Assembly (NCBI RefSeq): GCF_900142085.1 | Contig: NZ_FQZQ01000007.1 | Span: 1-64,000 of the forward strand | Reading direction: 5' to 3' | Length of the DNA stretch: 64,000 nucleotides | DNA from: Shimia gijangensis | GTDB lineage: Bacteria > Pseudomonadota > Alphaproteobacteria > Rhodobacterales > Rhodobacteraceae | Part shown: positions 15,893 through 42,369 of the stretch, piece by piece | How positions within the stretch are numbered: the first letter of the stretch is position 1 | Layout of the letters: every line of letters starts with the position of its first letter | Notes under the pieces: model-generated | Databases searched by the model: none | The model's input: the letters and a program-made list of their open reading frames with translations, nothing else | Told to the model about the DNA's origin: nothing | Translations under genes and position numbers: made by a program

Positions 15893-16009
15893 CGCACCGT
15901 CATTTGCAAAGTCGTTTGCGTTAAAAGAATTTCACATAGTAAAATTTTTTCAAGTCCAATGGCGAATCCCGTCGCTGGAAGAAATGCGTTTCTTGCTTGG
16001 AGGAAAGCT

Positions 16010-18100: not shown

Positions 18101-18114
18101 AAAGGAAAACCCCC

Positions 18115-19290: not shown

Positions 19291-19299
19291 GAGGCGGCA

Positions 19300-20496: not shown

Positions 20497-20509
20497 GGGG
20501 GGATCAATC

Positions 20510-23620: not shown

Positions 23621-23738
23621 TAATTATAAAGCATTAATCAAAAATGAAACTTCTGGACTGATATGCCCTGAGAATTTGGCTTTATGTTCTGAGGGCAAAA
23701 GGCTGTCTAAGTGGCCGAACCAATGCAGCGGAGGAAAG

Positions 23739-26573: not shown

Positions 26574-27310
26574 TGACTGCACTTCCCGAAGCCGCCGACA
26601 AAAAACTGGGCCTTGTGATTGATCTGGACACTTGCGTCGGCTGTCACGCTTGTGTGGTGAATTGCAAGGAATGGAACACCTCGAACTATGGCAACCCGCT
26701 GTCGGACATCGATGCGTATGGCGCTGAACCCGAAGGTACGTTCCTCAACCGCGTACATGCATTCGAGGTGACACCGGATACCGGGGGATGTGCGCAAACT
26801 ATCCATTTCCCCAAATCCTGTCTGCACTGCGAAGACGCGCCTTGTGTGACCGTCTGCCCGACGGGCGCCAGCTATAAACGGGTCGAAGATGGCATTGTTC
26901 TGGTCAATGAAAACGACTGCATGGGCTGCGGCCTGTGTGCCTGGGCCTGTCCTTATGGCGCGCGGGAACTGGACGCGCTGGCGGGCATCATGAAGAAATG
27001 CACCCTGTGTGTGGATCGCATTTACAACGAGAACCTGCCCGAAGAAGATCGTGAACCTGCCTGCGTGCGCACTTGTCCGGCAGGGGCCCGTCACTTTGGT
27101 GATCTGGGTGATCCCAGCAGCGATGTGTCCAAACTGGTCGCCGAGCGCGAAGGCATGGACTTGATGCCGGAAATGGGCACCAAACCGGTGAACAAATACC
27201 TGCCACCCCGTCAAAAGGATACGCTTTTGGCTGATATGGCGCTGACCCCGAAATCCGAAGAACCCAAAGGCTTTCTGGCCTGGCTTGACAAAGCACTGGA
27301 GGCCCTCTGA
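26573..27310 (+). CDS. soeB: Sulfite dehydrogenase iron-sulfur subunit SoeB
   Basis: The 245-residue ferredoxin-like protein has four cysteine clusters (CVGCHACVVNC, CLHCEDAPCVTVC, CMGCGLCAWAC, and a split CTLC...CVRTC) that hold four [4Fe-4S] centres, as in DmsB, NrfC and PsrB proteins. It carries electrons from SoeA to the membrane subunit SoeC. It has no signal peptide, in agreement with a cytoplasmic complex. Start and stop codons overlap those of its neighbours (TGATG), giving strong translational coupling. Confidence 0.9.
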   Translation: MTALPEAADKKLGLVIDLDTCVGCHACVVNCKEWNTSNYGNPLSDIDAYGAEPEGTFLNRVHAFEVTPDTGGCAQTIHFPKSCLHCEDAPCVTVCPTGASYKRVEDGIVLVNENDCMGCGLCAWACPYGARELDALAGIMKKCTLCVDRIYNENLPEEDREPACVRTCPAGARHFGDLGDPSSDVSKLVAEREGMDLMPEMGTKPVNKYLPPRQKDTLLADMALTPKSEEPKGFLAWLDKALEAL

Positions 27311-28182
27311 TGCACCCGGCACCCTCAGTAATCGTATTCACCACACTTAGCGGATTGGGCTTTGGCCTGCTGGCTTTCCTGGGCCTTGGTCTGCCGGATG
27401 TCTCTGGCATGACGGCTTTCGTGTTCTTCTTTATTGGCTATGGTCTCGCCATCGCAGGCCTCTTGGCGGCAACATTCCACCTTGGCAACAAGGTCAATGC
27501 CCACAAGGCGTTCAGCCAATGGCGCACAAGTTGGCTCAGCCGTGAAGGCGTCTGTTCCGTTGCCGCCCTGTTGGTTATGGCACCCTATGCGATTGGTCGT
27601 ATTTTCTGCGACGCGAACTGGGCCATTTTGGGCTGGGTCGGGGCCTTGTTGTGCCTTGGGACCGTGTTCACCACCTCGATGATCTACGCGCAGCTGAAAA
27701 CTGTGCCGCGTTGGAACATGCGTTGGACACCGGCCTTGTTCCTCACCCACGCGCTCGCAGGCGGTGCCTTGCTGGCGGGGCAAATCTCGGCAGCCGCGAT
27801 CCTTCTGGCGCTCCTTGGTGCGGTCCTGGCGATCTCCTGGAAACAGGGCGATCAACGCTTTGAAGACACCGGCACAACCCTTGGCACAGCAACCGGGCTG
27901 GACAGCATCGGCACCGTGCGTCAGCTGGAGCCACCGCATTCCGGCAAGAACTATCTGTTAAAGGAAATGGCCTTTCAGGTGGGGCGCAAACACAGCGCCA
28001 AACTGCGCGCGATTGCGCTGGCTTTGGGGGTGATTGTGCCCGTTCTATGCCTGACGGTGTTGCCGTTTTCACATGGGCTCGCCTTGGTTGCGATCCTGTC
28101 GCATCTGGTCGGCATCATGGCCGGACGCTGGCTGTTCTTTGCCGAGGCCAAGCACGTGGTCTCACTGTACTACCAAAGCTAA
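27310..28182 (+). CDS. soeC: Sulfite dehydrogenase membrane anchor SoeC (DmsC family)
   Basis: The 290-residue protein has eight or so hydrophobic helices and aligns in character with DmsC, the quinone-reactive anchor of DMSO reductase (PSVIVFTTLSGLGFGLLAFLGLG at the start, SQWRTSWLSREG after the second helix). It would pass electrons from SoeB to ubiquinone. It is the last gene of the soe operon. The stop is only 2 bases from the stop of the convergent octaheme cytochrome gene, leaving no room for a separate terminator. Confidence 0.88.
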   Translation: MHPAPSVIVFTTLSGLGFGLLAFLGLGLPDVSGMTAFVFFFIGYGLAIAGLLAATFHLGNKVNAHKAFSQWRTSWLSREGVCSVAALLVMAPYAIGRIFCDANWAILGWVGALLCLGTVFTTSMIYAQLKTVPRWNMRWTPALFLTHALAGGALLAGQISAAAILLALLGAVLAISWKQGDQRFEDTGTTLGTATGLDSIGTVRQLEPPHSGKNYLLKEMAFQVGRKHSAKLRAIALALGVIVPVLCLTVLPFSHGLALVAILSHLVGIMAGRWLFFAEAKHVVSLYYQS

Positions 28183-28184
28183 GA

Positions 28185-30116
28185 CTACGGAATTTGCGCA
28201 GCCAGCCCCGCGATCGTTGGGTCACCGGGGTTGGCGGCTTGCGCCTCGACCAGTGCCGCCCGTGCGGCGTCAGGTTCTTCCATGGCAAGGCTCAGGCGAA
28301 TGATAATACTCCAGGCCTGTACCATTTGTGGGTCCATCCGCACGGCCTCAAGAAAGGCCGCCCGCGCACCGGCAAAATTGCGTGTCGTCAAGGCGATGCC
28401 GCCCAGTTGCATATGCGTTTCGGGATAATCCAACCGGGTCTGCAGCGCATTTTGCCATTCACCGAATGCCCGGCTCATGGCCGACCTTTGATCGCCTGAC
28501 AGGCCGCTTGCCGGAGTTGTCAGCAACTCGCGCGCAGCCGTAATCCGCACCACCCGCCGCGTATCTTCCAGCAAGGGAAACAGGCGAGCGATCATGTCCT
28601 GCGGTTTGGCAGAACGTTGCAAAGGCACGGTGTTGGCGCGCACCATTGGGTTTTTATCCCGCAAAAGCGGCGCCACTGCGTCCGCCAGTTCGGGTGTGAT
28701 ATAGGCCTGCAATTGCTCCAATGCGGTGGCGCGAACAATTGCGGGCAGGCCATCATAAAGCGCAAGGTCCGCCAGCAAACGCCCCATTTCGGGACGGCCC
28801 TGACGCGCCGCAAAAAACACCTCGGAAAAATGCGACCCGCGGTTGGTCGAATTCGGATACCAGCGCTCCACCTGCCGCGCGGCCCATTGCGGGCTTTGGT
28901 CGGCGTGGCAATCGTTACAGGCATTTGGCGCGCCGGTTTTGGCTGTCAGATCAGGGCGTGGCACCCGGAACGAATGATCGCGCCGCCCATCAACACCCAT
29001 ATAGACCCGCTCGATCATATGACAGCTTTTGCATTCTGCACCTTTGCTGTCGACCTCGTGAAAATGATGCTTTGCGCTGTCATATTCGGCCAGTGGCAGA
29101 GACGGAAAATCACTGTTGCCTGCCTCGGAATGGCAGGTGGTGCAAACCGCATTGCCTTCGGCCTCAAGATTGGCCGCATGCACGTCGTGACAGTTTTTAC
29201 AGGTCACACCCTTGGCGTACATCTTGGATTGCAGGAATGACCCATAAACATAAACCTCGTCCAGAATTTGACCGTCGGGTTCGTAAATCGGCGCACGCAA
29301 CGTGGACAGGCGATAGGCGTCGTGGAACGGTGTGCCGGGGGCAGGGGAGCCGCCCAACAGCGGTTCACGTCGCGAATGACAACCCGCACATTGCTGGATC
29401 AGCACTTCACCATCTCCGGCGGCATAATCGACGGTCAGCCGGGTGTCTGTCAGGGTGTTTTGGGCCTCTCTGGAGGGCACGTCATTGGCCCAGTCCACAT
29501 GCGCAGACCCCGGTCCGTGACAGGCTTCGCACCCCACACCTATCTCGGCTTGCGTGCTGGAATAACTGCGGGTCTGTGGATCGTAATTGCGCTGATAATC
29601 CGTGGCGTGACATTCGGCGCAACGGGCATTCCATGTTTTGTAAGATCCGGTCCAGTGCAGGCCATTTTGGGCGTTCAATCCCTGTTCAGGATACATATGG
29701 AACCATTCTTTTCGCACAATGTCCCAAGGCACATCAAAGCTTTGCAAGCGCCCCGGTTCGGTCTCGACGGCATATTGCTGGAGCGGGGCCACTCCGATCA
29801 CCGCCGCCACCGGATAGCGTGTCATTTCGCCATCAGGCCCGTCGCTCTCGATGATAAAATCTTCACCTTCGCGGGAAAATCGCGAGGTCACACCATCGAG
29901 TGTAAAAGATGTATCACCAAAGTCGGCCAGAATGGTGGCCTCGGATGGCGGCGTCCAAGCCAAGTCATGATGTGAGCCTTCCCAGGCCTTGGCCTCATCC
30001 GTGTGGCAGGCAATGCAGGCGTCGGTGCCAATATAGGCAGGTTCTGCCTGACCGGGGGTGGCCTGACAGATCAGAAAAAGGCCAAAACCAAAAATGAAAG
30101 ATCGAAAAAGAAACAT
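28185..30116 (-). CDS. Octaheme cytochrome c with repeat-rich C-terminal domain
   Basis: The 643-residue protein has a signal peptide (hydrophobic to about residue 20, cleavage near PGQA-EP) and eight CXXCH heme sites at residues 34, 166, 196, 243, 306, 325, 362 and 400, so it is a periplasmic octaheme cytochrome. After about residue 440 there are no hemes; the remainder is helical, with HEAT-like (AVAPLLRDKNPMVRANTV) and TPR-like (FAGARAAFLEAVRMDPQMVQAWSIIIRLSLAMEE) repeats. The ATG at 30116 was preferred to an in-frame TTG at 30131 because it starts the signal peptide. It is convergent with soeC and divergent from an arylsulfatase, so a role in sulfur redox chemistry is likely but unproven. 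Confidence 0.82.
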   Translation of the reverse strand: MFLFRSFIFGFGLFLICQATPGQAEPAYIGTDACIACHTDEAKAWEGSHHDLAWTPPSEATILADFGDTSFTLDGVTSRFSREGEDFIIESDGPDGEMTRYPVAAVIGVAPLQQYAVETEPGRLQSFDVPWDIVRKEWFHMYPEQGLNAQNGLHWTGSYKTWNARCAECHATDYQRNYDPQTRSYSSTQAEIGVGCEACHGPGSAHVDWANDVPSREAQNTLTDTRLTVDYAAGDGEVLIQQCAGCHSRREPLLGGSPAPGTPFHDAYRLSTLRAPIYEPDGQILDEVYVYGSFLQSKMYAKGVTCKNCHDVHAANLEAEGNAVCTTCHSEAGNSDFPSLPLAEYDSAKHHFHEVDSKGAECKSCHMIERVYMGVDGRRDHSFRVPRPDLTAKTGAPNACNDCHADQSPQWAARQVERWYPNSTNRGSHFSEVFFAARQGRPEMGRLLADLALYDGLPAIVRATALEQLQAYITPELADAVAPLLRDKNPMVRANTVPLQRSAKPQDMIARLFPLLEDTRRVVRITAARELLTTPASGLSGDQRSAMSRAFGEWQNALQTRLDYPETHMQLGGIALTTRNFAGARAAFLEAVRMDPQMVQAWSIIIRLSLAMEEPDAARAALVEAQAANPGDPTIAGLAAQIP

Positions 30117-30303
30117 GATGTCTTTCCGCAAAAAGGGACTGCCTTAGGCTATGTAGCCCGCTGCCTCACCAAATCGCCACCGCGAACTGGAAATTCTTAG
30201 AAAAAGGAAGTTAAATCGCGAGGGCAAAAAAATTACGCCGAAAAGTTGCCCTGCCGCCGCGCCAATCTAAATGTACCAGTATTCGTAAATCGGGGAGAGT
30301 TTT

Positions 30304-31890
30304 ATGATTTTGCAATTATCCATTTTAGGGCGGTGCACGGGCGGTGTCCTCAGAACCGCCGCCGCGGTGGTCGCTTTGGCGGCACCTGCATGGGCCCAGG
30401 CGGACAAACCCAACATTCTGGTGATCTGGGGCGATGATATCGGCCAATCCAATATTTCGGCGTACACAATGGGGATGATGGGCTATCAGACGCCCAACAT
30501 TGACCGCGTGGCCAAAGAAGGCATGATTTTCACCGATTATTACGCCGAACAATCCTGCACAGCGGGGCGGTCATCCTTTATTACGGGTCAATCGGTGTTC
30601 CGCACGGGCCTGTCCAAAGTGGGAATGCCCGGTGCCAAAGAGGGCATGCAAGTCCAGGACCCCACGATTGCGGGCTTGTTGAAAGCACAAGGCTACAGCA
30701 CAGGACAATTCGGCAAAAACCACCTTGGTGACCGCGATGAAATGTTGCCGACAAACCATGGCTTTGATGAGTTTTTTGGCAACCTTTACCATCTGAATGC
30801 CGAAGAAGAGCCCGAGAACGAAGACTATCCAACAAACCCTGAATTTCGAGAAAACTTTGGTCCACGCGGTGTGATTAAGTCGAACGCCGATGGCACCATC
30901 GAAGACACCGGCCCGCTGACCAAAAAGCGCATGGAAACTGTGGATGATGAAACCACAGAGGCTGCGCTGGACTTTATTCGACGTAAAAACGAAGAAGGTG
31001 AGCCTTGGTTCGTGTGGTGGTCTGGCACACGGATGCACTTTCGCACCCACGTCAAAGACGAAATGCGCCTCAAAGCGGATGAGCTTGCCGGGCGGCATAT
31101 GGATGAATATCAGGCTGGCATGATCGAACACGACCTGCACATTGGTCAGTTCCTTGATTTGCTGGACGAGTTGGGCATCGCCGACAACACCATCGTGCAT
31201 TATTCAACCGACAACGGCCCCCATATGAACACGTGGCCAGATGCCGCAATGACACCGTTCCGGGGTGAAAAGAACACCAACTGGGAAGGTGGCTGGCGCG
31301 TGCCATCCATGGTGCGTTGGCCGGGCAAAATTGAGGCCGGATCAATCAGCAACGACATCATGCACCACATGGACTGGCTGCCCACTTATGTGGCTGTGGC
31401 TGGGAACCCGGATATCAAGGAACAGTTGAAAGATGGTGGCGTTCAGGCCATCGGGCGCGAATACAAAGTGCATCTGGATGGTTACAATTTCTTGCCGTAC
31501 CTCACCGGGGAAACCAACGAAGGTCCGCGCCAGGAGATTTTCTATTTCTCGGATGACGGTGACCTGACAGCTCTGCGTTATGGCGATTGGAAGGCTGTTT
31601 TCCTTGAGCATCGCTATCCACAAACGCTGCAGGCCTGGGCCGAGCCTTGGACCGAATTGCGTATTCCACTGCTGTTTAACCTGCGCCGTGACCCTTATGA
31701 ACGTGCATCGGTGACTTCAAACACCTACTGGGACTGGTACATTGACCGCGTCTATCTGCTGTTGCCAGCAGCGGCCTACGTCAGCCAGTTCCTTGACACA
31801 TTTGAAGAATTCCCGCCGCGTCAAAAACCCGGCAGCTTCACGATTGGTGACGCCAAGGACAAGATCTTTAGCCAGATCGGGTCCAAATAG
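30304..31890 (+). CDS. Periplasmic arylsulfatase (S1 family) with CTAGR active-site motif
   Basis: The 528-residue protein has a signal peptide (hydrophobic to about residue 31, cleavage near AWAQA) and the alkaline-phosphatase-like sulfatase fold. Metal ligands are in IWGDD at residues 44-45. The residue converted to formylglycine is C85 in CTAGRSSF. The usual motif is C-x-P-x-R, and the proline is alanine here, a variant known for some anaerobic-type maturases. No maturase gene is in the window. The C-terminal helper motifs GQFGKNHLG and TDNGP are present. It removes sulfate from an ester in the periplasm; the substrate is unknown. Confidence 0.9.
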   Translation: MILQLSILGRCTGGVLRTAAAVVALAAPAWAQADKPNILVIWGDDIGQSNISAYTMGMMGYQTPNIDRVAKEGMIFTDYYAEQSCTAGRSSFITGQSVFRTGLSKVGMPGAKEGMQVQDPTIAGLLKAQGYSTGQFGKNHLGDRDEMLPTNHGFDEFFGNLYHLNAEEEPENEDYPTNPEFRENFGPRGVIKSNADGTIEDTGPLTKKRMETVDDETTEAALDFIRRKNEEGEPWFVWWSGTRMHFRTHVKDEMRLKADELAGRHMDEYQAGMIEHDLHIGQFLDLLDELGIADNTIVHYSTDNGPHMNTWPDAAMTPFRGEKNTNWEGGWRVPSMVRWPGKIEAGSISNDIMHHMDWLPTYVAVAGNPDIKEQLKDGGVQAIGREYKVHLDGYNFLPYLTGETNEGPRQEIFYFSDDGDLTALRYGDWKAVFLEHRYPQTLQAWAEPWTELRIPLLFNLRRDPYERASVTSNTYWDWYIDRVYLLLPAAAYVSQFLDTFEEFPPRQKPGSFTIGDAKDKIFSQIGSK

Positions 31891-32232
31891 AGGCCCGCGC
31901 AAACACCAATTCCTGCCGCTTGCAAAAGGCAGAACAGGTCTAAATGCGCCTAACAACCAAAAGCCGCCTTTTGAGGCGGCTTTTTCCATTTGAAATTCCG
32001 GCCCCCAAACCTCGGGCCAAAAATTTCCTGAGGCAGGCATGAGACCATCGCCTTGCAAGGTCGGATTCAGTCAACAGGCTTCGGAAACTGGCAAGAAATC
32101 TATGCTTTGCGCTCGCAAGCTTGGCACAAAGACATCGGACATCGAAGCGCGCCCATATTGAACCCTTTGGGGGGCGGGTTTTAAAACCGGTCGATTTGTC
32201 GTCGGTATTCGCTGAAATCTGAGGAGGCATCC
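31891..32232. other. Intergenic region, 342 bases
   Basis: This gap holds the sulfatase terminator (31959-31985) and then about 250 bases of leader before the enolase gene. I see no convincing ORF or RNA gene in it. A GAGGAGG ribosome binding site lies at its end, just before the GTG start at 32233. Confidence 0.5.
31959..31985 (+). terminator. Rho-independent terminator after the arylsulfatase
   Basis: AAAAGCCGCC (31959-31968) pairs with GGCGGCTTTT (31975-31984) in a 10-bp stem with a 6-base loop, and the stem's 3' arm runs into a run of five T. It is a strong intrinsic terminator, 68 bases after the arylsulfatase stop codon. Confidence 0.9.
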
Positions 32233-33333
32233 GTGAAGATCAAAGAACTCCATATTTACCAACACGATCTGCCGGTTGAAAACGGCCCCTATACGATGGC
32301 AAACGCCGAGGTCTGGTCCCTTAAAACAACGCTGGTGAAAATGGTGGCCGACAATGGCCTTGTCGGCTGGGGAGAGACCTGTCCTGTGGGCCCCACCTAT
32401 GCCGAAAGCCATGCGTTGGGGGCGCTTGCGGCACTGTCTGAGATGGCGCCGAAACTGGTCGGGACCGAAATCAATCCTCTGGCGTTGCGGCGGGCGATGG
32501 ATGGTTTGTTGAATGGTCACCGCTATGCCAAAGCCGCCATTGATATCGCCGCCTATGACCTTATGGGCAAGGCAACAGGATTGCGGGTGGCTGATCTGTT
32601 GGGGGGCGCGATGACCGAAAATGTGCCGTCCTATTATGCCAGCGGTGTGGGCACCCCGGATGATATCGCGCGGCTCGCCGGAGAAAAAAGCGCCGAAGGC
32701 TATCCCCGGATGCAGATCAAAGTCGGGGGGCGCCCGGTTGAGATTGATATCGAGGTGATCCACAAGGTCTGGGAAACGGTTGGCCTAAAGATGCGGCTGG
32801 CGGTTGATGGCAACCGGGGTTGGACCACGCGGGACGTGTTGCGCGTATCCCGCGAGTGTGCGGAAATTCCTTTCATCATGGAACAACCCTGCAATACCAT
32901 CGAAGAAATTGGCGCCATTCGCGCGCAAGTTGGCCATGCGATCTATCTTGATGAGAACACCGTTGATCTGAACACTGTGTTGCGCGCTGTTGGGGATGGC
33001 ATATGCGACGGGTTCGGGATGAAAGTCACGCGCATCGGTGGCCTGCATGCGATGGCCACATTCCGCGACATCTGCGAGGCGCGATCCATGCCCCATACCT
33101 GCGATGATTCCTGGGGCGGCGATATTATCGCGGCGGCCTGCACCCACATCGGCGCCACAGTTCAGCCACGGCTATTGGAAGGTGTCTGGTTGGCGCAGCC
33201 CTATATCAAAGGGCATTATGACCCGGTCAACGGTATTAAAATTAAGGACGGTCATATCGCATTGCCCAAAGGCCCGGGGCTGGGCGTGGTGCCAGACGAA
33301 ACACAATTTGGCGCTTCGGCGGCGTCCTTCTGA
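32233..33333 (+). CDS. Enolase-superfamily enzyme, HpbD-like betaine epimerase / hydroxyproline dehydratase subgroup
   Basis: The 366-residue protein starts at GTG 32233 behind GAGGAGG and has the capping domain and barrel of mandelate racemase and muconate lactonising enzymes. Metal ligands are D192, E217 and D240; the two catalytic lysines are K163 (QIKVGG) and K264 (GMKVTR). The residues Y56, D291/D292 and W319 match, in my recollection, the betaine-binding residues of HpbD, a roseobacter 4-hydroxyproline-betaine 2-epimerase. That would fit the betaine-type ABC importer and the choline-sulfatase-like genes nearby. The substrate is an inference. Two SDR genes follow closely (9 bases, then overlapping). 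Confidence 0.8.
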
Positions 33334-33342
33334 GGAGCGATC

Positions 33343-34074
33343 ATGGATTTCACTGGAAAACACGCATTGGTGACGGGCGCGGCTGGCGGCATTGGTGCGG
33401 CTATCGTTCGGATGCTACGTACAGCAGGGGCCAAAGCCGCAGTGGCCGACAAGGATGTGTCGGGACTTGAGGCCGAGGCGTATTTGCCGGGCGACCTGAC
33501 CGATGGCGACTATGCAAATGGGTTGCCCGCAGCGGCCATGGACGCTCTTGGTGGTCTGGACATCGTGATCAACAATGCAGGTATCATGCGACGCGGGCCA
33601 GTCACTGCCAGCACAGATGAGGACTTTGATCTGTCGGTGGCGGTCAACGTCAAAGCGCCGTTTCGGATTTGCCGGTCGGCCATTGCGTTGATGGCAGAAC
33701 AGGGCAGCGGGGCAATCGTCAACACTGCCTCGTGTTGGGGGGTGCATCCCGGACCGGACCACGCGGTCTATTGTATGACCAAGGCCGCGATTGCGTCGCT
33801 CACCCAATGTATGGGACGTGACCATGCCCATCAGGGCATCCGCATCAACGCAGTTTGCCCAAACGAAGTTGACACGCCAATGTTGCGCACCGGATTTGAA
33901 ATGCGCGGATTTGATCCCTCAACGGCAGTGGCAGAGCTTGGCAAAACGGTTCCTCTTGGCCGTATCGCGCAACCCGAAGACATTGCCGAAGTGGTGTTGT
34001 TTCTGGCGTCCCCCCACGCGCGCTATATTTGTGGGGAACTGGTTGAAGTGAACGGAGGCAAGCCCGTCGGATGA
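33343..34074 (+). CDS. SDR-family dehydrogenase (first of a pair)
   Basis: The 243-residue protein is a classical short-chain dehydrogenase/reductase: NAD(P) motif TGAAGGIG near residue 9, NNAG ([11 protein letters not shown]), and the catalytic Y-x3-K in [10 protein letters not shown] with an upstream serine in NTAS. It oxidises a hydroxyl or reduces a ketone of an unknown substrate. The acidic residue in AVADKD after the second strand suggests NAD rather than NADP. It is translationally coupled to the next SDR by a 4-base overlap (ATGA). Confidence 0.9.
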
Positions 34075-34805
34075 CACGTTTTGAAGGCAAAACCGCGCTT
34101 GTGACTGGCGGGCGCAGCGGCATCGGGCAGGCCATTGCCCGACGGTTGCGCAATGAGGGCGCGCTTGTTGTGACGGCTCAGCGCAGCGCAGACCCCGAGT
34201 TTGACTGGATATCCGCCGATTTCACGGATCCTGCCAGCCCTGCCAAAGTGATTGCGGAAATGGTTGGCCGGGCAGGGCGGCTTGATGTTCTGGTCAATAA
34301 CGCCGGTATGATGCAGGAAGCGGGTATCGAGGATATGTCTCTGAGCGATTGGCAGAGATCGCTGACCGTGAACCTGACCGCGCCGTTTCTGATGATTAAG
34401 GCCGCACTGCCGCATCTGCGTTCAGCCAAAGGCAGTATCGTCAACATTGGGTCCATCGAAGGTCTGGGCAGCAATCCCAGTCACGCCGCCTATTGCGCGT
34501 CCAAGGCAGGGTTGCACGGGCTGACGCGCGCCGTGGCGGTGGATCACGGTGTTGATGGCGTGCGTTGCAACGCCATCGCGCCGGGCTGGATCGACACCGA
34601 CCTTAATCTGGATTTCATCGACAGCATGGATGACCCGGACGCGTTTCGCCGTGAGATCGGCAAAATCCACCCGGTGGGCCGCACCGGACACCCTGACGAA
34701 GTGGCTGCTTTGGTTGCCTTTCTGGCGGCTGAAGAAAGCGGTTTTGTCACCGGGCAAGTGTACACCGTGGATGGTGGGCGTATGGCCAAACTCAGCCTGC
34801 CATAG
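34071..34805 (+). CDS. SDR-family dehydrogenase (second of a pair)
   Basis: The 244-residue SDR has TGGRSGIG near residue 12, VLVNNAGMM, a serine in [10 protein letters not shown] and Y-x3-K in [16 protein letters not shown] after the second strand replaces an acidic residue by arginine and serine, which favours NADP. It overlaps the first SDR by four bases. The pair may oxidise and reduce consecutive intermediates, or work as an epimerising couple with different cofactors. It ends 16 bases from the convergent sulfatase gene. Confidence 0.9.
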
Positions 34806-34821
34806 TCGTGTGGAGAAAGGT

Positions 34822-36372
34822 CTAGTGGTTTTTCGGCAGCGGGTATCCCTTGGCCGGGAGCCGCACCTTTCGGTCAATCACCTCGTGGCTGTTGGCTGAC
34901 CGCACATAGGTGTCGCTATAGTCCGGCTTGGGGATGAAATCCCACGGCTCGGCCCGCCCCTGTTTCAACGCATCACGGACAACATCGCGCTTCTTCTGGC
35001 TTCGGCGGATTTTGTCGTTCAGTCTGGGCAGATCCCAGACCTCCGCCTGCCGGGCGCGAAACTGCGACAGAAGCTCTGCGCTGTCGGCATGTTCCGCCAG
35101 ATTGTTCAGTTCATTTGGATCAACCCTCAGATCAAACAACATCTCGGGATCATCTGTCGAGGCGATGTATTTGTAGGGGCCTTTGCGGATCATGATGATC
35201 GGCGTGGTGGTGGCATCTGCTGTGTATTCCGCAAGAATTTCGTCAGACCAATCCTCGGCTGCTCCGGTCACCAGGCCCAGCAGGCTCGCGCCCTCCAGAT
35301 CACAATGATCCTGGTTGCAGTGATCCTGCCCAACGTCGGCTCCGGCGATATCCAGAAAGGTCGGCAGCAAATCCATCAACGATGTATTCTGTTCCACCAT
35401 GGGGGTCTGTGACTGGCCGGGAAGGTGGACGATCAAAGGCACCCGCATGGCCCATTCAAAAAAACAGTCCTTGGCCCACAATCCGCGTTCACCCAGCATT
35501 TCGCCGTGATCTGCGGTGACGATGATTGCGGTGTCGTCTTTCAGCCCGGAGGCCTCCAGCGCCTCAATGATTTGCCCGACTTTGGCGTCGAAATACGAGA
35601 TTGACCCGTAGTAGGCATGCCGGGCCTGACGCGCGTGGTCGGCGCTGACATCACTGTGATCCAGCCCGATCATTTTGCGGCACCTTTGGCTGTGTGGATC
35701 AAGATTGGCGTCTGGCAGGCGGTCAACGGTGGGTTCGGGAACCTCCTCTTCGCGGTACATCTCCCAATATTCGGGCTGTGTCAGAAACGGATGATGTGGA
35801 TGGCTGAGGGACACAAACAGGAAAAACGGATCGTCTGGCGCGCGCGCGTATTCAAACAACTTGTGAACCGACTTTTGCGTGGCCTCTTCGTCAAAGGCGA
35901 TCTGCATATTCCACGCACAGACACCACCATTTTCGATGGTGTTGCGCATCGGCTCAAAACCTTTTTCGCCGGTTGTCCAATCCGGCAGCCATGCGAAATC
36001 GGCGGGGTAAATCTCGGCCGTTAGCCGTTCTTCAAACCCGTGTAGCTGATCGGGGCCGACAAAATGCATCTTGCCACTCAGGCAGGTGTGATACCCCGCA
36101 CGACGCAGGAAATGCGCAAAAGTTGGCTCGGAGGCCGGCAGCTCTGCGGCATTGTCATAAACACCAACCTTGCTGGCCAGTTGCCCGGTTAACATTGAGC
36201 CGCGCGACGGGCCGCACAGGGGGTAGTTGCAGTAAAAATTCCGAAACACCGTGCCCTCGCTGGCCAACCGGTCCAGATTGGGCGTTTTCGCCGCCCCTCC
36301 ATAGAGCGACAAAGCCTGCGCGGCGAGCTGGTCTGCCTGAATGACCAAAATGTTGGGTCTTGTTGCAGGCAT
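34822..36372 (-). CDS. Choline-sulfatase-like sulfatase, copy A
   Basis: The 516-residue cytoplasmic sulfatase (no signal peptide) resembles BetC. The formylglycine cysteine is C53 in CGPSR and the metal site begins ADQ at residues 13-15. The block SGKMHFVGPDQLHGFEERLT is characteristic of choline sulfatases. The C-terminus (PRLNDKIRRSQKKRDVVRDALKQG) is the helical tail that BetC uses for oligomers and substrate capping. It hydrolyses choline-O-sulfate or a related sulfate ester to the amine and sulfate. The next gene upstream on the same strand is a second homologue. betIBA genes are not in the window. Confidence 0.88.
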   Translation of the reverse strand: MPATRPNILVIQADQLAAQALSLYGGAAKTPNLDRLASEGTVFRNFYCNYPLCGPSRGSMLTGQLASKVGVYDNAAELPASEPTFAHFLRRAGYHTCLSGKMHFVGPDQLHGFEERLTAEIYPADFAWLPDWTTGEKGFEPMRNTIENGGVCAWNMQIAFDEEATQKSVHKLFEYARAPDDPFFLFVSLSHPHHPFLTQPEYWEMYREEEVPEPTVDRLPDANLDPHSQRCRKMIGLDHSDVSADHARQARHAYYGSISYFDAKVGQIIEALEASGLKDDTAIIVTADHGEMLGERGLWAKDCFFEWAMRVPLIVHLPGQSQTPMVEQNTSLMDLLPTFLDIAGADVGQDHCNQDHCDLEGASLLGLVTGAAEDWSDEILAEYTADATTTPIIMIRKGPYKYIASTDDPEMLFDLRVDPNELNNLAEHADSAELLSQFRARQAEVWDLPRLNDKIRRSQKKRDVVRDALKQGRAEPWDFIPKPDYSDTYVRSANSHEVIDRKVRLPAKGYPLPKNH

Positions 36373-36393
36373 CGCGCGTTCCTTCTGAAGGGG

Positions 36394-37908
36394 TCAGGCT
36401 TTTGACGGAAGGTGGTTAAAGGCCCATTCGTTGTACCCACCTTCACCACGATACCACAGAACCTCGTCCCCCGGTTTTTCATCATGATTCCAACGGGTTT
36501 TGACACCGGTGCTGGTGGCGTTTCGTACCACGGCCCGACGTTTCTGGCTGAGCCTGATTTGAGTGTTCAGCGCATCCGTGTCCCATTTGGCGCGGGCTTC
36601 ATCTACAAACCGTGCGACCACGTCCTGATGGTTGACGTCTTCAGCCAGATTGTTGACCTCGGTGGGGTCCGCCTCAAGATCATACAGCAGATGACCATCG
36701 TGCGAGGAGGTGATGAATTTGTATTTGCCGCGCCGGATCATGAAAATCGGAGCGGGAGTGGCTTCGGCCAGATACTCGCCGTAAACCGCGCGCTCCGGCG
36801 GCGGATTGCCCCGATCAATCAACGTCATCAGGTCGCTGCCTTCCAACGGCTCTGCCGTGGCAGACCATTGCCCTTCGGTCGCCAGACTGTTGAACGTGGG
36901 CACCAGATCAACCAGCGACGTCAGTTCCGATACGCGCTGGGCGTCAAGCCAGGGGGCATAGATGAACATCGGAATACGCATGGAATGTTCAAAGAAATGC
37001 TTTTTGAACCACATGCCGCGTTCACCCAGCATTTCGCCGTGGTCTGACGTAAACACAATTGCAGTGTTTTGATCTGCGCCGGTGGCTTTCAGAGCGTCCA
37101 GCAATTGCTGGATCATCGCGTCGATATAACTGATCGCGCCATAATATGCCCGTTTCGCCCGCAGCACCTCTTCGTCTTTAAAGCGGTGCTCAAGCATGCC
37201 GAAATCATTCAACAGCCGCACCGAATGCGGATCGTGATCCTGTTCGTTTAAGGGGCCGACTGCGGGCAAGGGGATATCCTTGTCTTCATACAGATCCCAA
37301 TATTCCTTGCGGCACAGATAAGGCTCGTGTGGATGGGTGTAACTCACCTGCATAAAGAACGGACGCTTGTCATTTGACCGCGCCAGATCATAGATGTTCT
37401 GCACCGCTTTGAACGTGACCTCTTCGTCATAGTCCATCTGCACCGTGCGTTCGGCGATACCAGATATCAGGATGGCGCGGGCATCATTGGTGTCGCGATC
37501 GCCTTCGTCCTCCCAATTTGGCACCCAGCTAAAGTCAGCGGGATACAAGTCTGCCGTCAGCCGCTTTTCGAACCCGTGAAACTGGTCAGGGCCGATGAAA
37601 TGCATCTTGCCAGACAGGCTGGTCTGATAGCCAAGTTCGCGCAAATAATGCGCATAGGTTGGCACTTCTGCTGAAAACTCGGCTGCATTGTCATAGGCCC
37701 CAACTTTGGAGCAAAGCTGCCCTGTGGCCATGGAAAACCGTGACGGGGCACAGAGCGGAAAGTTGCAATAGGCGTTTTCGAACACCACGCCATTGTCCGC
37801 CAGATGATCCAACGCCGGAGAGTGGCAGGACTGATCGCCATAGGTGCGCAAGGCTGACGCGGTCAGTTGGTCGACCTGAAGGAACAGGATATTCGGTTGT
37901 TGCGACAT
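36394..37908 (-). CDS. Choline-sulfatase-like sulfatase, copy B
   Basis: The 504-residue cytoplasmic sulfatase is a close paralogue of copy A. C53 in CAPSR is the formylglycine residue, the metal site begins VDQ at residues 12-14, and SGKMHFIGPDQFHGFEKRLT is conserved. The C-terminal tail is longer and different (RWNHDEKPGDEVLWYRGEGGYNEWAFNHL). The residues that differ between copies near the substrate may separate choline-O-sulfate from another ester. It ends 21 bases before copy A and begins 14 bases after the permease stop, so all lie in one transcript running from the ABC importer to the sulfatases. Confidence 0.88.
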   Translation of the reverse strand: MSQQPNILFLQVDQLTASALRTYGDQSCHSPALDHLADNGVVFENAYCNFPLCAPSRFSMATGQLCSKVGAYDNAAEFSAEVPTYAHYLRELGYQTSLSGKMHFIGPDQFHGFEKRLTADLYPADFSWVPNWEDEGDRDTNDARAILISGIAERTVQMDYDEEVTFKAVQNIYDLARSNDKRPFFMQVSYTHPHEPYLCRKEYWDLYEDKDIPLPAVGPLNEQDHDPHSVRLLNDFGMLEHRFKDEEVLRAKRAYYGAISYIDAMIQQLLDALKATGADQNTAIVFTSDHGEMLGERGMWFKKHFFEHSMRIPMFIYAPWLDAQRVSELTSLVDLVPTFNSLATEGQWSATAEPLEGSDLMTLIDRGNPPPERAVYGEYLAEATPAPIFMIRRGKYKFITSSHDGHLLYDLEADPTEVNNLAEDVNHQDVVARFVDEARAKWDTDALNTQIRLSQKRRAVVRNATSTGVKTRWNHDEKPGDEVLWYRGEGGYNEWAFNHLPSKA

Positions 37909-37922
37909 GGATTAGTCCTTGA

Positions 37923-38840
37923 TCAGTTCTTGAGGATTTTTGATCGCAAGAAACCAATCGGGCCAGTTTCGTACCATTTCTTATGTCCACGATCGCGCGC
38001 AGAGATACCAAAGCTTTGCGACACCCGGTCAATCACCACAGCAAGAAACACAATGCCAAGACCACCCACGGTCGCCAGCCCCATATCCAGACGCCCGATA
38101 CCGCGCAAAACCATCTGTCCCAGACCGGTCACCGAAATCATCGAAGACACGACCACCATCGACAGCGCCATCATGATCGTCTGGTTGACGCCAGCCATGA
38201 TGGTTGGCATCGCCAAAGGCAGTTCTACTTTGTACAGAGTTTGCCGTTTGCTGGCGCCAAAGGCGCGCGCGGCTTCGACCATGTCGGGGCGCACCTGTCG
38301 GATACCCAGGTTGGTCAGGCGCACAACCGGTGGCAGGGCGTAAATAAAGGTCACGATAACCCCCGAGACATTGCCGATCGAGAACAGCATCACGATAGGC
38401 ACGAGATACACAAAAGACGGAATGGTCTGCATCAGATCCAAAAAGGGCTGCAACACGTACCAGAACCGATCACGTTTGGCCGCCACCACGCCCAGCGGAA
38501 TGCCAATGATCGAACAGAACACCACGCAAGTCAGCACAATGGACAAGGTGGTCATGCTTTCTTCCCAAGCCCCCATCAGCCCGATGGCCAGCATACAGGA
38601 TGCCGAAATCAGCCCCAGACGTCGCCCGCCAGCCTGCCAGGCCACCAGCGTAATTACAGCCAGCATGACCAGATCGGGCGCACCGGTCAGCGTGTCTTCC
38701 AGACCGCTCAACACAAAATCAAATGGCACTTTAATTGCTTGGAAAATAAAGCGGAAATTGGACACAACCCAGTTAAGAAATTGTTCAACCCAGGCCCCAA
38801 CCGGCACCCATTCTTTATCGAAGATATCCCAGAGATCCAT
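37923..38840 (-). CDS. ABC transporter permease, ProW-type (quaternary amine importer)
   Basis: The 305-residue protein has an N-terminal extension and the six-helix membrane domain of glycine-betaine/proline importers. The EAA-type cytoplasmic loop is near VEAARAFGASKRQTLYKVELPLAMPTIMAGVNQTIM. It forms the channel of an ABC importer with the ATPase just upstream and the binding protein further upstream. It lies 11 bases after the ATPase and 14 bases before sulfatase B. Confidence 0.92.
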   Translation of the reverse strand: MDLWDIFDKEWVPVGAWVEQFLNWVVSNFRFIFQAIKVPFDFVLSGLEDTLTGAPDLVMLAVITLVAWQAGGRRLGLISASCMLAIGLMGAWEESMTTLSIVLTCVVFCSIIGIPLGVVAAKRDRFWYVLQPFLDLMQTIPSFVYLVPIVMLFSIGNVSGVIVTFIYALPPVVRLTNLGIRQVRPDMVEAARAFGASKRQTLYKVELPLAMPTIMAGVNQTIMMALSMVVVSSMISVTGLGQMVLRGIGRLDMGLATVGGLGIVFLAVVIDRVSQSFGISARDRGHKKWYETGPIGFLRSKILKN

Positions 38841-38851
38841 TTTCGTTTCTC

Positions 38852-39871
38852 CTATCCGCGCAGCGCCGTCAACGCGGCCTTGATGGTGATATGACCAACC
38901 GAATTGCCATCCGGATCGACAACAGTCAGCGGCTCTTGGTCGTCAAGAAAGCAATCAATGATTGCGCTCAACTCGGCCCCTGTCTGAATGGTTTTGTTTG
39001 TGGCTGCGCGCCCTTCCAGCGGCTCCATGATAGTCTCGGCATGCACGAGGCTGACTCGGCTGATGCCTTTGACAAACTCAGCGACATAGTCGTCTTTGGG
39101 GTTGGTCACGATCTCTTCGGGTGTCCCGATCTGAACGATTTCGCCATCATTCATAATTGCGATGTGGTCCCCCATGCGGATCGCTTCATCCAGATCATGG
39201 GTGATGAACAGTGTTGTTTTCTTGAGCTTTGCAGACAGTTCCAGAAACTGATCCTGCAATTGTCGGCGGATCAGCGGATCCAAAGCCGAGAATGGTTCAT
39301 CCATCAGCAGGATTTCAGGGTCAGCGGCCAAAGCGCGTGCCAATCCGACCCGCTGTTGCATTCCGCCAGAAAGCTGATCGGGGTAATGGTCAATCCAGCC
39401 GCTCAGATCCATCGCTTCCAGCGCTTTGATCGCAGCCTCACGGCGGGCCTCATAGGGCACATCACGGACCTCAAGACCAAATCCGACGTTTTCACCCAGT
39501 GTTCTGTGCGGCCACAGCGCCATGTGCTGAAACACCATGCCAATGGTTTCTGCCCGAAGAAGACGTAGTTCGGGTTCGGCCATCGTATCCACCCGTTGGC
39601 CGGCCACATGAATTTGTCCCGACGTTGGTTCAATCAGGCGATTAACGTGGCGCACAAGGGTGGATTTCCCCGAGCCTGACAGGCCCATAATGCAAAAAAT
39701 TTCGCCTTCTTTAACGGAAAAGCTGGCGTTTCGGACTCCAAGCACACAGTCGAACTGATCTCGGACTTCCTCTTTGGTAAGGTTGTCTTTCAGAACCGCT
39801 TCCATGGCTTTCTGGGAATTCGCACCGTAGATTTTCCACAAATCCCGGCATTCGATCTGGGCGTTGCTCAT
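38852..39871 (-). CDS. ABC transporter ATPase, ProV-type
   Basis: The 339-residue cytoplasmic ATPase has a Walker A site GLSGSGKST near residue 62, the signature LSGGMQQRVGLARAL and a Walker B ILLMDEPFSALDP. ProV proteins carry a C-terminal CBS region that senses ionic strength. Here the C-terminal 70 residues (TNKTIQTGAELSAIIDCFLDDQEPLTVVDPDGN) form one partial CBS module. It energises uptake by the neighbouring permease. The binding-protein gene ends 55 bases upstream of its start. Confidence 0.93.
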   Translation of the reverse strand: MSNAQIECRDLWKIYGANSQKAMEAVLKDNLTKEEVRDQFDCVLGVRNASFSVKEGEIFCIMGLSGSGKSTLVRHVNRLIEPTSGQIHVAGQRVDTMAEPELRLLRAETIGMVFQHMALWPHRTLGENVGFGLEVRDVPYEARREAAIKALEAMDLSGWIDHYPDQLSGGMQQRVGLARALAADPEILLMDEPFSALDPLIRRQLQDQFLELSAKLKKTTLFITHDLDEAIRMGDHIAIMNDGEIVQIGTPEEIVTNPKDDYVAEFVKGISRVSLVHAETIMEPLEGRAATNKTIQTGAELSAIIDCFLDDQEPLTVVDPDGNSVGHITIKAALTALRG

Positions 39872-39926
39872 GAACTGACCTCAAAAAAGGGGAGCGCGGA
39901 CCAAGCCGCGCTCCAGTAGGGGAGTT

Positions 39927-40910
39927 TTAGTTGGCAGCGGCCATTCCGGCGGCAACCCAGCTGTCGAATTCCGCCTGATTGGCAGCAATCCAGGCTTCGG
40001 CGTGGCGATAGAAATCTTCCAGCGTATCCTCACCTTCTTTGACCTTCACCTGTTGGGCGTTGATGGCTCCAATCGGAACGTCGACCTGTTCAAAGAACGC
40101 GGCAGCCGCCGGATTCTCTTTGAGGAAGTCGTTGTTGGCGACAATATAGATGTCGTTCACCGCAAACCCCGGGTCGGTACCGTCGGCCGCAACTGTTGTG
40201 CTGTCGTCACTGGCAGGCACGCCAATCTGCACAGTGTCTGTGCCGGGAATCAGAACGTCGCTGATCCAGTTGGGTGTCCATGTGTAATAAAAGATCGACC
40301 CACCTTCGTTGTAGCGCGTGATGGTGTCGGCCATGATGGCGAAATAGCTGCCCTGATCGTGGTGAATCGAGTCACGCAGGTCAAACTTGTCCAAATGCCC
40401 TTCGATCACCAGCTCACATCCCCAGCCCGGGTTACAACCCGACAGGTTCGCTTTGCCGTCGCCATTCGCGTCAAACAAGGCCGCAATTGCGGGATCAGTC
40501 ATCTGGCCGATATTGGTGATGCCATGCGCTTCAGCGGTTTTCTTGTCGATATAAAATCCCTGGCCTGCGCCTTTTACGCCAGCTTTGACCCGCGTCATCA
40601 CATCGTTGCCGCCGGACTTGTCATAAAAGCTGTTGTGCAACGGTTTCCAGTGGTTGAACGTATAAGTCGTATCGCCTGAAGCGATCGACAGATGCACCGC
40701 AGGGTAATCGGCTTCCTGCGTTTCTTCCAGTTCATAGCCCAGCTTTTCCAGACCTTTTCTGACAATAATATGCTGGAACCATGCGTTCGCTGTACTGCCC
40801 TTAATCGGAGAGACCTCTACGCCTGCACCGGGCAGGTCTGCCGCAAAAGCCGCCGATCCCATTGTCATTCCTGCTGTGGCCAAAGCCATCATCATTTTTT
40901 TCGCTGTCAT
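39927..40910 (-). CDS. Periplasmic betaine-type substrate-binding protein (OpuAC/ProX)
   Basis: The 327-residue protein has a signal peptide (hydrophobic to about residue 23, cleavage near AFAADLPG). It has the two-lobed OpuAC fold, with many aromatic residues near the ligand cleft (TFNHWKPLHNSFYDK, YYTWTPNWISD) that make cation-pi boxes for quaternary amines. It delivers substrate to the permease. It starts the importer operon, and a GGAGG ribosome binding site precedes the ATG. An 8-bp inverted repeat lies 17 bases upstream. Ligands such as choline-O-sulfate, betaines or hydroxyproline betaine are possible. Confidence 0.92.
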   Translation of the reverse strand: MTAKKMMMALATAGMTMGSAAFAADLPGAGVEVSPIKGSTANAWFQHIIVRKGLEKLGYELEETQEADYPAVHLSIASGDTTYTFNHWKPLHNSFYDKSGGNDVMTRVKAGVKGAGQGFYIDKKTAEAHGITNIGQMTDPAIAALFDANGDGKANLSGCNPGWGCELVIEGHLDKFDLRDSIHHDQGSYFAIMADTITRYNEGGSIFYYTWTPNWISDVLIPGTDTVQIGVPASDDSTTVAADGTDPGFAVNDIYIVANNDFLKENPAAAAFFEQVDVPIGAINAQQVKVKEGEDTLEDFYRHAEAWIAANQAEFDSWVAAGMAAAN

Positions 40911-41433
40911 TTTTTCCTCCTGGTGGCAAACCGCAGATTTTGGCGGTTTGGTGAAAGTGTTTCCGAGCCCTGCTGATCACGATAAAGCTTGGGAATTCCC
41001 GGCTTCATATGTTGACCAAACTGTTACGGCTGACCTTCTCCTCGTCTTTGTTCAAAGACAGGCCGACTCGGTAAGTGTAGTGCCTGCGGCGCATGCGGGT
41101 CAAAAGAATCACATTTTGCCGGGTTGCAAAATTGGGCCGTTTCTCGGTGTTCCTGTGGGGTTTGTTGAGAGCTTTGCTGATCGACTTCGCCCGCAATGAT
41201 TTCCCGACCTGGTGCCAAAACACCTTGATTTGACCAATCAGACAAAGAATTTCGCCACATTTTGATGCGGGACGCAGTAAATTTGTCTGAAGGGGGAAAG
41301 GAAAGCATTGTCACGGAGCGTTATAAACCCTGAGCTGTCATCGTTAGGTGAGCGTTCATATTTCCTCCGGGTTTCAAGGCAGCAAATAATTCCCCTTTGC
41401 TGAGATGTTCATATTAGGAGGACGAATACACCT
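40911..41433. other. Divergent regulatory region, 523 bases, between importer operon and LysR gene
   Basis: No believable protein is encoded here: the overlapping frames lack homology-like features. The region contains the inverted repeat at 40927-40950, the 10-bp palindrome GGGAATTCCC at 40991-41000, and the AGGAGG ribosome binding site of the LysR gene at 41416-41421. It probably holds both promoters and LysR binding sites. Confidence 0.5.
40927..40950. promoter_or_regulatory. Inverted repeat upstream of the substrate-binding protein gene
   Basis: CAAACCGC (40927-40934) and GCGGTTTG (40943-40950) are perfect complements with an 8-base loop. The repeat begins 17 bases before the importer's first start codon. 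It may be an operator or a 5' leader hairpin. Confidence 0.4.
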
Positions 41434-42369
41434 GTGAAGTTCCAATTTCCGTTTCAATGTGTTAACCACAGCGTTATGCGAAATCTACGTCTAGAACTCT
41501 CAAAACTAAACCACCTGATCACGTTTGAAGCGGCAGCCCGTGCGGATAATTTTTCACGTGCCGCCGACCATTTGGGCGTGACTCGGGTCTCTGTCAGCCG
41601 CCAAATCACGGAACTGGAAGAGTTTCTTGGCACCAAACTGTTTCACCGGCATCATCGCACAACGTCTCTGACGCAGGCCGGGCGGGCTTTGAAAAGCTCG
41701 GTCGGCCCGGCATTGAATGATGTTGCGGCGACCCTGCAACAGATCAAACTGGGGGCCGGGGACACGCGCCTGTCTGTTACAGCAACGGCCGCCTTTGCGA
41801 CCTATTGGTTGATGCCGCGCATTGTTGATTTCAACAACAAGTACCCCGAAGTGGAATTGAACCTTATTATTTCAGACAAATATCTGGACCTTGATGCTGA
41901 AAATGTCGATGTCGCCATTCGGTATCCGGATATGCCCATGACAGGCGATCATATTACGCCGTTGTTTCAGGAAACGGTTTGCCCGGTTTATAGTCCGAAG
42001 TATTCCCCACGAACCAAGCTGAGTTCCCCAGAGGATCTGCTGAACGAAAACCTTTTGTCGCTGTCTGGTCGATATCGTCCCGGAGCCAAATGGCCCAATT
42101 GGTTTCGACAGGTCGGACTGTCCGCACCACGAGAAAACATGGGGGTGTCGGTCAACACTTACAGCAACATGATTCAGGCCGCGATCGAGGGGCAGGGCGT
42201 GGCTTTGGGGAGCTTCCCACTGGTCGATCACTGCATCAGAAACGGGTCTTTGATGAAAGTCCCGGGCGCTCCCGGCCTCACACGGGATACATTCTATCTT
42301 GTGGATCAAGCGGGGGGTCGGAAAAACGCCCGGCTGTTTTGCGAGTGGCTACTTGCGCAATCTCCCTGA
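41434..42369 (+). CDS. LysR-family regulator (GcvA-like)
   Basis: The 311-residue protein has an N-terminal helix-turn-helix (LNHLITFEAAARADNFSRAADHLGVTRVSVSRQITELEEFLG) and a type-2 periplasmic-binding-like effector domain. The GTG at 41434 is favoured because an AGGAGG ribosome binding site lies upstream; an ATG at 41476 has no such site but would match shorter family members. It is divergent from the betaine-type importer and probably controls it together with the sulfatases. The effector is unknown. Confidence 0.88.
   Translation: MKFQFPFQCVNHSVMRNLRLELSKLNHLITFEAAARADNFSRAADHLGVTRVSVSRQITELEEFLGTKLFHRHHRTTSLTQAGRALKSSVGPALNDVAATLQQIKLGAGDTRLSVTATAAFATYWLMPRIVDFNNKYPEVELNLIISDKYLDLDAENVDVAIRYPDMPMTGDHITPLFQETVCPVYSPKYSPRTKLSSPEDLLNENLLSLSGRYRPGAKWPNWFRQVGLSAPRENMGVSVNTYSNMIQAAIEGQGVALGSFPLVDHCIRNGSLMKVPGAPGLTRDTFYLVDQAGGRKNARLFCEWLLAQSP

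Follow-up and report, generated by a model that had tools for sequence, protein, structure and literature searches.

Three described systems bear on a block of genes at positions 30304-42369 of a 64,000-nucleotide stretch of the Shimia gijangensis contig NZ_FQZQ01000007.1 (assembly GCF_900142085.1; the whole stretch is referred to here as the window). HpbD enzymes of the enolase superfamily, represented by Protein Data Bank entries 2pmq, 4h2h, 4e8g, 4izg and 4j1o, which we take to be hydroxyproline-betaine/proline-betaine epimerases, were reportedly the subject of two papers in 2013-2014. The glycine betaine importer ProXVW (ProU) of Escherichia coli has in its binding protein ProX a Trp box and His69 that presumably serve in binding. 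In the choline sulfatase BetC of Sinorhizobium meliloti (SmCS; 6fny, 6g5z, 7pth), Trp129 and His145 clamp the ammonium group and Glu386 is the proposed recogniser, these residues being weighed differently in the accessible parts of PMC9063841 and PMC5870055. The activities 4-hydroxyproline betaine 2-epimerase and proline betaine racemase are named in the accessible part of PMC5144071.

Relatives of all three lie side by side in the window, where they can be read as two separate modules that meet tail to tail. Module A is hpbD followed by two short-chain dehydrogenase/reductase (SDR) genes, SDR-A and SDR-B; module B consists of a LysR regulator, a ProXVW-type importer and two cytoplasmic sulfatases, sulfatases 2 and 3. 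An original prediction made on this DNA had proposed one pathway for a sulfated quaternary amine; every gene that it named is present in 30304-42369 according to family models and open reading frames, and its quaternary-amine theme is supported. The explanation that we favour, and to which we give a little more than an even chance, is that these are two catabolic modules in an accessory region, A forming the front half of a hydroxyproline-betaine pathway. HpbD would epimerise C2 of hydroxyproline betaine, the NAD-type and NADPH-type SDRs would invert the ring hydroxyl via a ketone such that other stereoisomers can feed in, and an MTTB demethylase, FAD oxidase, DHDPS-type enzyme and aldehyde dehydrogenase encoded on another contig, C46, would finish the pathway. 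Module B would bring in a small sulfate ester that resembles a betaine, either instead of choline-O-sulfate or in addition to it, and its sulfatases would remove the sulfate in the cytoplasm, sulfatase 3 being an addition at this locus. Four things can be read from the sequence itself: which families the genes belong to, that A stands apart from its usual partners, that both modules are conserved, and that the choline clamp is missing.

The nearest solved relatives of the window's enolase are 4e8g, 4izg and 4j1o, followed by 2pmq and 4h2h (515 bits), and by these the betaine-like enolase of the original prediction belongs to the HpbD family. As in HpbD there are two lysines at the catalytic positions, K163 and K264, and these are invariant in 18 aligned sequences together with Y56, D291, D292 and W319, which we take to be the aromatic and acidic residues of the pocket. 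C2 epimerisation is the expected reaction. Isomerisation or dehydration had been proposed for this step; dehydration was rejected, the NCBIfam cis-3-hydroxyproline dehydratase model giving 256.6 against a cut-off of 500 and the nearest solved entries 515-611 bits. Unlike in the published HpbD system, hpbD is followed here by two SDR genes and adjoined by sulfatases, and the demethylation gene expected is an MTTB on another contig, whereas the published pathway reportedly has a Rieske system.

We scanned a named genome collection by hpbD alignment and kept the best 80 of 509 relatives, so that close ones are favoured; 61 of these 80 loci are at least 20 kb long, two share one contig, and genes in all compared stretches are simple open reading frame picks. 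By tblastn, SDR-A and SDR-B are present in 62/80 loci, MTTB in 59/80, the set of DHDPS, aldehyde dehydrogenase (ALDH) and DAO in 57/80, a ProV of at least 50% identity in 30/80, and a relative of the window's sulfatases in 0/80. A Pfam search of one representative hpbD locus returned MTTB, aldehyde dehydrogenase, DAO oxidase, DHDPS family and GntR. HpbD together with this set would fit demethylation followed by the D-hydroxyproline route. In S. gijangensis the set lies on contig C46 (identity to the cluster: AraC 72, GntR 80, DHDPS 79, ALDH 86, DAO 54 and MTTB 88%). Because C46 has no SDR pair, and because in one other genome (G038) the pair sits exactly between DAO and MTTB, we read hpbD-SDR-SDR of the window as the other half of the C46 pathway, placed apart; most simply, a hydroxyproline-betaine pathway that is widespread would have had its front half moved here. 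The accessible part of PMC12478193 treats glycine betaine demethylation in marine bacteria and does not mention hydroxyproline. A further MTTB gene lies just beyond the window, at C76:68726-70204.

An Asp after beta-2 and a Gln-Arg pair are the classical NAD and NADP signals of SDRs. SDR-A has Asp36 in 72/72 aligned sequences and SDR-B has Gln37 and Arg38 in 70/70, with some loci counted twice in each set; the different cofactor signals of the original prediction are thus real and conserved. Since the signals are both invariant and opposite, we propose a hydroxyl stereoinversion, in which the pair would most likely oxidise a ring hydroxyl with NAD+ to a ketone and re-reduce it with NADPH to the other epimer, rather than the two successive oxidations that the predicted pair of oxidoreductions might suggest. 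The family sample contains 29 further SDR-A loci, with SDR-B in 29/29, an hpb-type MTTB (at least 77%) in 24/29 and HpbD in 11/29; the link of the SDR pair to MTTB is closer than that to HpbD. We found neither a published role for the two SDRs nor any paper combining proline betaine, short-chain dehydrogenase, methyltransferase and hydroxyproline in the open-licence part of PMC, to which all our literature searches refer. The MTTB-(HpbD)-SDR-SDR cluster makes the stereochemistry of hydroxyproline-betaine breakdown a testable question. At L251:9767-13196 (G090), an SDR pair converges on ProV/ProW-type genes with 44-46% identity to those of the window; neither a sulfatase nor an MTTB of hpb type was found close by.

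In module B, sulfatases 2 and 3 both lie above the choline-sulfatase cut-off of TIGR03417 (433.45), and neither has a signal-like start by eye, in agreement with the two cytoplasmic choline-sulfatase paralogues that had been predicted. They share with S. meliloti BetC (PMC5870055, PMC9063841, as far as accessible) the family, the CxPxR formylglycine motif, an acidic residue at 386 and the catalytic residues, C54, R58, K102, H104, H201, D296, H297 and K309 being identical in both. Unlike BetC, they have no WYHN hairpin and are linked to ProXVW and LysR instead of betI/betBA. Sulfatase 2 keeps Trp129 and Glu386 and has R-D-T-N-D where SmCS reads W-W-Y-H-N; sulfatase 3 keeps Trp129, has Asp in place of Glu386, and carries the Pfam domain Choline_sulf_C. 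Y123 is kept in both, and the residues aligned to the C-tail gate are changed. In a midpoint-rooted tree sulfatase 2 falls in a clade of its own (n=12, support 1.0) in which the clamp residues are missing in 12/12, and the WYHN motif is present in 16 sequences that group with SmCS, apart from this clade, at a node without stated support. A search of the other 294 family genomes, with up to five candidates scored in each, gave no match to sulfatase 3 at E <= 1e-150.

A separate BetC with the full WWYHN motif adjoins BetI on contig C42. The genome search placed betA at five positions, none of them on the window's contig, and the sole one over the cut-off lies on C42 with betC-betI. The predicted absence of choline-to-betaine genes is borne out for betA, and a choline-to-betaine reading of the locus was rejected on the same grounds. 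Because sulfatases 2 and 3 are without the choline clamp and a clamp-bearing BetC stands beside BetI elsewhere, the substrate is probably not choline-O-sulfate, as had been suspected, and choline-O-sulfate appears unlikely as the main substrate of module B. The sequence comparison argues robustly that the sulfatase-importer module is not of the choline-clamp type, and equally that a hydroxyproline-betaine pathway with a conserved SDR pair is split in this genome. Automatic annotation labels such sulfatases betC, from which their hosts would be taken for users of choline sulfate. The missing clamp speaks against this, and directs attention to sulfated osmolytes that could be sought in plants, algae or seawater.

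The importer has all three parts of E. coli ProXVW, with W65, W140, W188 and H69 conserved in ProX, although unlike ProU its operon carries a sulfatase. An Arg after GWGCE, present in 21/22 ProX sequences aligned from hpb loci, is missing in all five module-B ProX. The arrangement of LysR with proX-proV-proW-sulfatase 2 occurs in five loci: the window, G269, Ruegeria sp. ANG-S4 (G427), the plasmid pRLG203 of R. leguminosarum WSM2304 and a plasmid of Yoonia SS1-5, the two plasmids having been retrieved in another search, of 72,556 records. Ruegeria sp. ANG-S4 carries module A too, on a different contig from module B. LysR proteins 50% (L185) and 58% (L199) identical to that of the window each adjoin the same importer-sulfatase operon, and in Yoonia LysR is matched in two pieces and lacks an annotation. 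Module B is apparently mobile, with a transposase gene beside it in G269 and an integrase gene and IS1182 transposase in Yoonia. The Yoonia plasmid also encodes an enolase, which was rejected as a hydroxyproline enzyme after giving no HpbD match at E <= 1e-15 and no NCBIfam model at 1e-40, and we therefore count this plasmid as a module-B locus only. In 12/12 same-genus stretches around rimO (∼17-18 kb; taken from the 19 other genomes with a rimO match), none of the genes of the block was found at E <= 1e-15, save that one of the stretches gave weak matches of ProV-type ATPase. The genes to the left of the block, those of the molybdoenzyme and of beta-oxidation, were likewise not found in these 12 stretches; we therefore regard the region as accessory. 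At L184:118-10565 a run of genes combines a sulfatase-2 ortholog, a DAO oxidase and an ABC importer of dipeptide type with two binding proteins.

The coordinates of all features are collected in Table 1. The block comprises at least three transcription units, split by the hairpin at 31959-31985 and by the converging operons. Genes in the plus-strand run hpbD-SDR-A-SDR-B are separated by 9 and -4 bases, SDR-A and SDR-B overlapping by 4 bases, and those in the minus-strand run proX-proV-proW-sulfatase 2-sulfatase 3 by 55, 11, 14 and 21 bases. The two operons converge at the ends of SDR-B and sulfatase 3 with 16 bases between them, and LysR and proX diverge across 523 bases. LysR scores 244.9 of 288 with the GcvA model and 213.9 of 324.8 with the choline-sulfate regulator model TIGR03418, under the cut-off in both cases. 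The hairpin at 31959-31985, whose sequence matches the window exactly once, was first spotted by eye; when it was folded, 2/200 shuffles did as well. It was not listed by a consensus scan that gave 6 promoter-like and 14 terminator-like sites, numbers not above those in shuffles.

Table 1. Features of the block at 30304-42369 of the window.
Feature	Position	Strand	Score or basis
S1 sulfatase (sulfatase 1), secreted-type, CTAGR motif	30304..31890	+	Pfam PF00884, 173.6 bits
Intrinsic-terminator-like hairpin, sulfatase 1/hpbD gap	31959..31985	+	RNA fold -17.4 kcal/mol, z -3.46
HpbD-type 4-hydroxyproline betaine 2-epimerase (predicted), MR/MLE enolase superfamily	32233..33333	+	611 bits to 4e8g/4izg/4j1o
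SDR-A, NAD-type (Asp36 after beta-2), tetrad N102 S130 Y143 K147	33343..34074	+	371 bits to 3uxy
SDR-B, NADP-type (Gln37-Arg38), tetrad N101 S128 Y141 K145	34071..34805	+	
Sulfatase 3, cytoplasmic, CGPSR, choline-sulfatase superfamily, without WYHN hairpin	34822..36372	-	TIGR03417, 599.2 bits
Sulfatase 2, cytoplasmic, CAPSR, R-D-T-N-D replacing the choline clamp	36394..37908	-	TIGR03417, 613.5 bits
ProW-type permease	37923..38840	-	PRK10952, 428.9 bits, slightly below cut-off 439
ProV-type ATPase	38852..39871	-	TIGR01186, 353.4 bits, cut-off 326.6
Hairpin with T tail, proX/proV gap	39891..39914	-	Consensus scan; RNA fold -18.6 kcal/mol, z -4.07
ProX-type binding protein, Trp box W65/W140/W188 and H69	39927..40910	-	PRK11119, 401 bits, cut-off 215
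LysR regulator, divergent from importer-sulfatase operon	41434..42369	+	Below cut-off of GcvA and choline-sulfate-regulator models

If modules A and B are used jointly, sulfated hydroxyproline or its betaine would be imported and desulfated by B and the product would enter A. From gene content and context, such a union as a route for sulfated hydroxyproline betaine is a good hypothesis on an indirect basis, and we give it clearly less than an even chance, with sulfated hydroxyproline betaine as the best specific candidate for the substrate. In a family sample of 295 genomes minus S. gijangensis itself, with 3 to 9 candidates scored per genome by search, SDR-A is found in 5/8 other sulfatase-2 genomes as against 29/294 overall (hypergeometric P 3e-4), and hpbD in 3/8 as against 16/294 (P 0.006). 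In G079, a gene for the cis-3-hydroxy-L-proline dehydratase LhpI (AcnX; PMC5144071, accessible part), which has no counterpart in the window, is the operon partner of a sulfatase-2 ortholog; it scores 865 bits (cut-off 700) and, should translation begin at its first GTG, starts on the same strand 4 bases past the sulfatase-2 stop. In HIMB11 (G176; L242:9186-18951), the SDR pair and a sulfatase operon are convergent across a 15-base gap, with a second sulfatase and then an MTTB-like gene; the sulfatase operon contains three genes resembling TctA, TctB and TctC, as judged by size and order.

Several results weigh against this union, or against parts of the assignments behind it. A search with 11 sulfatase queries of the flanks compared at 97 other hpbD stretches found no sulfatase (the window excluded, at least six duplicates between the two sets pooled, and 15/97 under 15 kb), and the joint pathway is for this reason not established; the counts were unchanged when repeated without an overlap rule that hid the sulfatase match of L186 in some listings. 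A sulfatase is present in only 1/29 other SDR-A loci (HIMB11), and the presence of a sulfatase is the reason why the window was chosen. Genomes with other choline-sulfatase-family matches (n=27) are also enriched, with SDR-A in 7/27 (P 0.01) and hpbD in 4/27 (P 0.048), such that the excess of sulfatase-2 genomes over this control is weak (P 0.07), all of these P values ignoring phylogeny and genome size. The neighbours of sulfatase 2 vary and include a dipeptide-type ABC, an amidohydrolase and a sugar ABC, and ProX keeps a site that could also accept choline-O-sulfate or plain betaines. G126 has, close to an hpb-type DAO/MTTB/ALDH/DHDPS set, a sulfatase that belongs to another clade and sits in its own operon; this may be either a third sulfatase-hpb association or simply a grouping of amine genes. 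No specific NCBIfam cut-off is reached by the DAO, DHDPS-type and ALDH proteins of L040 or by the DAO and DHDPS-type proteins of S. gijangensis, so that the hydroxyproline route is drawn from families and context. No sulfated hydroxyproline was found in the literature searched, and we know of no report of sulfated hydroxyproline betaines or hydroxyprolines as a nutrient. The single pathway of the original prediction was thus not sustained, the modules being separate in other genomes, no sulfatase having been found at the 97 other hpbD stretches, and sulfatase 1 seemingly having its own terminator.

We consider it an even chance that A and B are unrelated neighbours in a general quaternary-amine island, with B taking another sulfated amine and A free hydroxyproline betaine; this would reject only the link between the modules. 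They are found apart elsewhere and lie here on separate strands across the convergent gap, in a genome of 4.1 Mb with many genes of this kind (16 MTTB paralogues, 17 sulfatases), and the mobile genes beside module B in G269 and Yoonia, the missing block beside rimO in the same genus, and the different sulfatase operon near the hpb-type set in G126 all suit chance proximity. The co-occurrence of SDR-A and hpbD with sulfatase 2 across the family genomes, the sulfatase-AcnX operon of G079 and the parallel in HIMB11 speak for a connection instead. Module B could also be a further uptake and hydrolysis system for choline-O-sulfate, its sulfatases being choline sulfatases with an altered pocket. We think this improbable: although both exceed the NCBIfam cut-off, keep W129 and E386 or D, have plasmid orthologs annotated betC and, in sulfatase 3, contain Choline_sulf_C, WYHN is found in neither of them nor in any of the 12 sequences of the sulfatase-2 clade, the residues aligned to the C-tail gate are changed, the other BetC with the full motif adjoins BetI, and this contig has no betA. 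Still less probable, in our view, is that B acts on the sulfate of a non-proline betaine, for example one of carnitine or serine type. In G126 a KWYHN sulfatase shares an operon with a GbcA-like Rieske oxygenase, an SDR, a beta-keto acid cleavage enzyme and another SDR, which would fit a beta-hydroxy betaine, and G223 has the same gene order by clustering; these KWYHN sulfatases, however, belong to a different clade, and none of those enzymes was seen beside module B in its five loci.

Two tail-to-tail modules, a hydroxyproline-betaine front half and an importer-desulfation system for a sulfate ester that is not choline-O-sulfate or is additional to it, thus remain the reading we prefer; in it we infer the epimerase and stereoinversion activities, the substrates and any link between A and B. 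A more far-reaching proposal, which we offer tentatively and regard as rather doubtful, is that bacteria have a dedicated route for sulfated hydroxyproline betaines or hydroxyprolines, in which a sulfatase clade that has exchanged its choline clamp for a pocket accepting an amino-acid-like betaine, and that is plasmid-borne with ProXVW, feeds HpbD, the SDR pair and MTTB. If the joint pathway is true, the bacterium might eat a sulfated osmolyte.

An operon of AraC, a GbcA-like Rieske oxygenase, a KWYHN-type sulfatase, an SDR, a beta-keto acid cleavage enzyme and an SDR was observed at L223:6751-13418 and L219:7342-15148. At L219 it also includes a carnitine-dehydrogenase-like and a DMSP-lyase-like gene, and at L223 it is followed by an hpb-type DAO/MTTB/ALDH/DHDPS set. 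This operon is a candidate route for a sulfated beta-hydroxy betaine.

The periplasmic sulfatase of the original prediction corresponds to sulfatase 1, an S1 sulfatase whose N-terminus is signal-like as read by eye. It lies under the cut-off of all six NCBIfam models listed, its nearest solved relative is 7aj0 (193 bits), and no relative was found at the hpbD loci searched. We set it apart from hpbD because the hairpin at 31959-31985 between them looks like its own terminator, and it is probably an independent unit unrelated to both modules.

Genes next door had been taken for sulfite oxidation genes, which amounts to a guess: those at 23676-28182 form a DmsABC-like molybdoenzyme set with general molybdopterin oxidoreductase, Fe-S and DmsC domains only, without a specific assignment. 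Sulfatases set free sulfate, not sulfite, and a link between the sulfate esters and these genes was rejected on both counts; the molybdoenzyme genes are probably separate from the sulfatase and betaine modules. Convergent with them, at 28185-30131, lies a gene for a multihaem cytochrome with HEAT- and TPR-like repeats. Further to the left, a protein with POR and DUF6537 domains, ferredoxin oxidoreductase-like, is encoded at 12067-15459 and adjoins a beta-oxidation set at 15959-22793.

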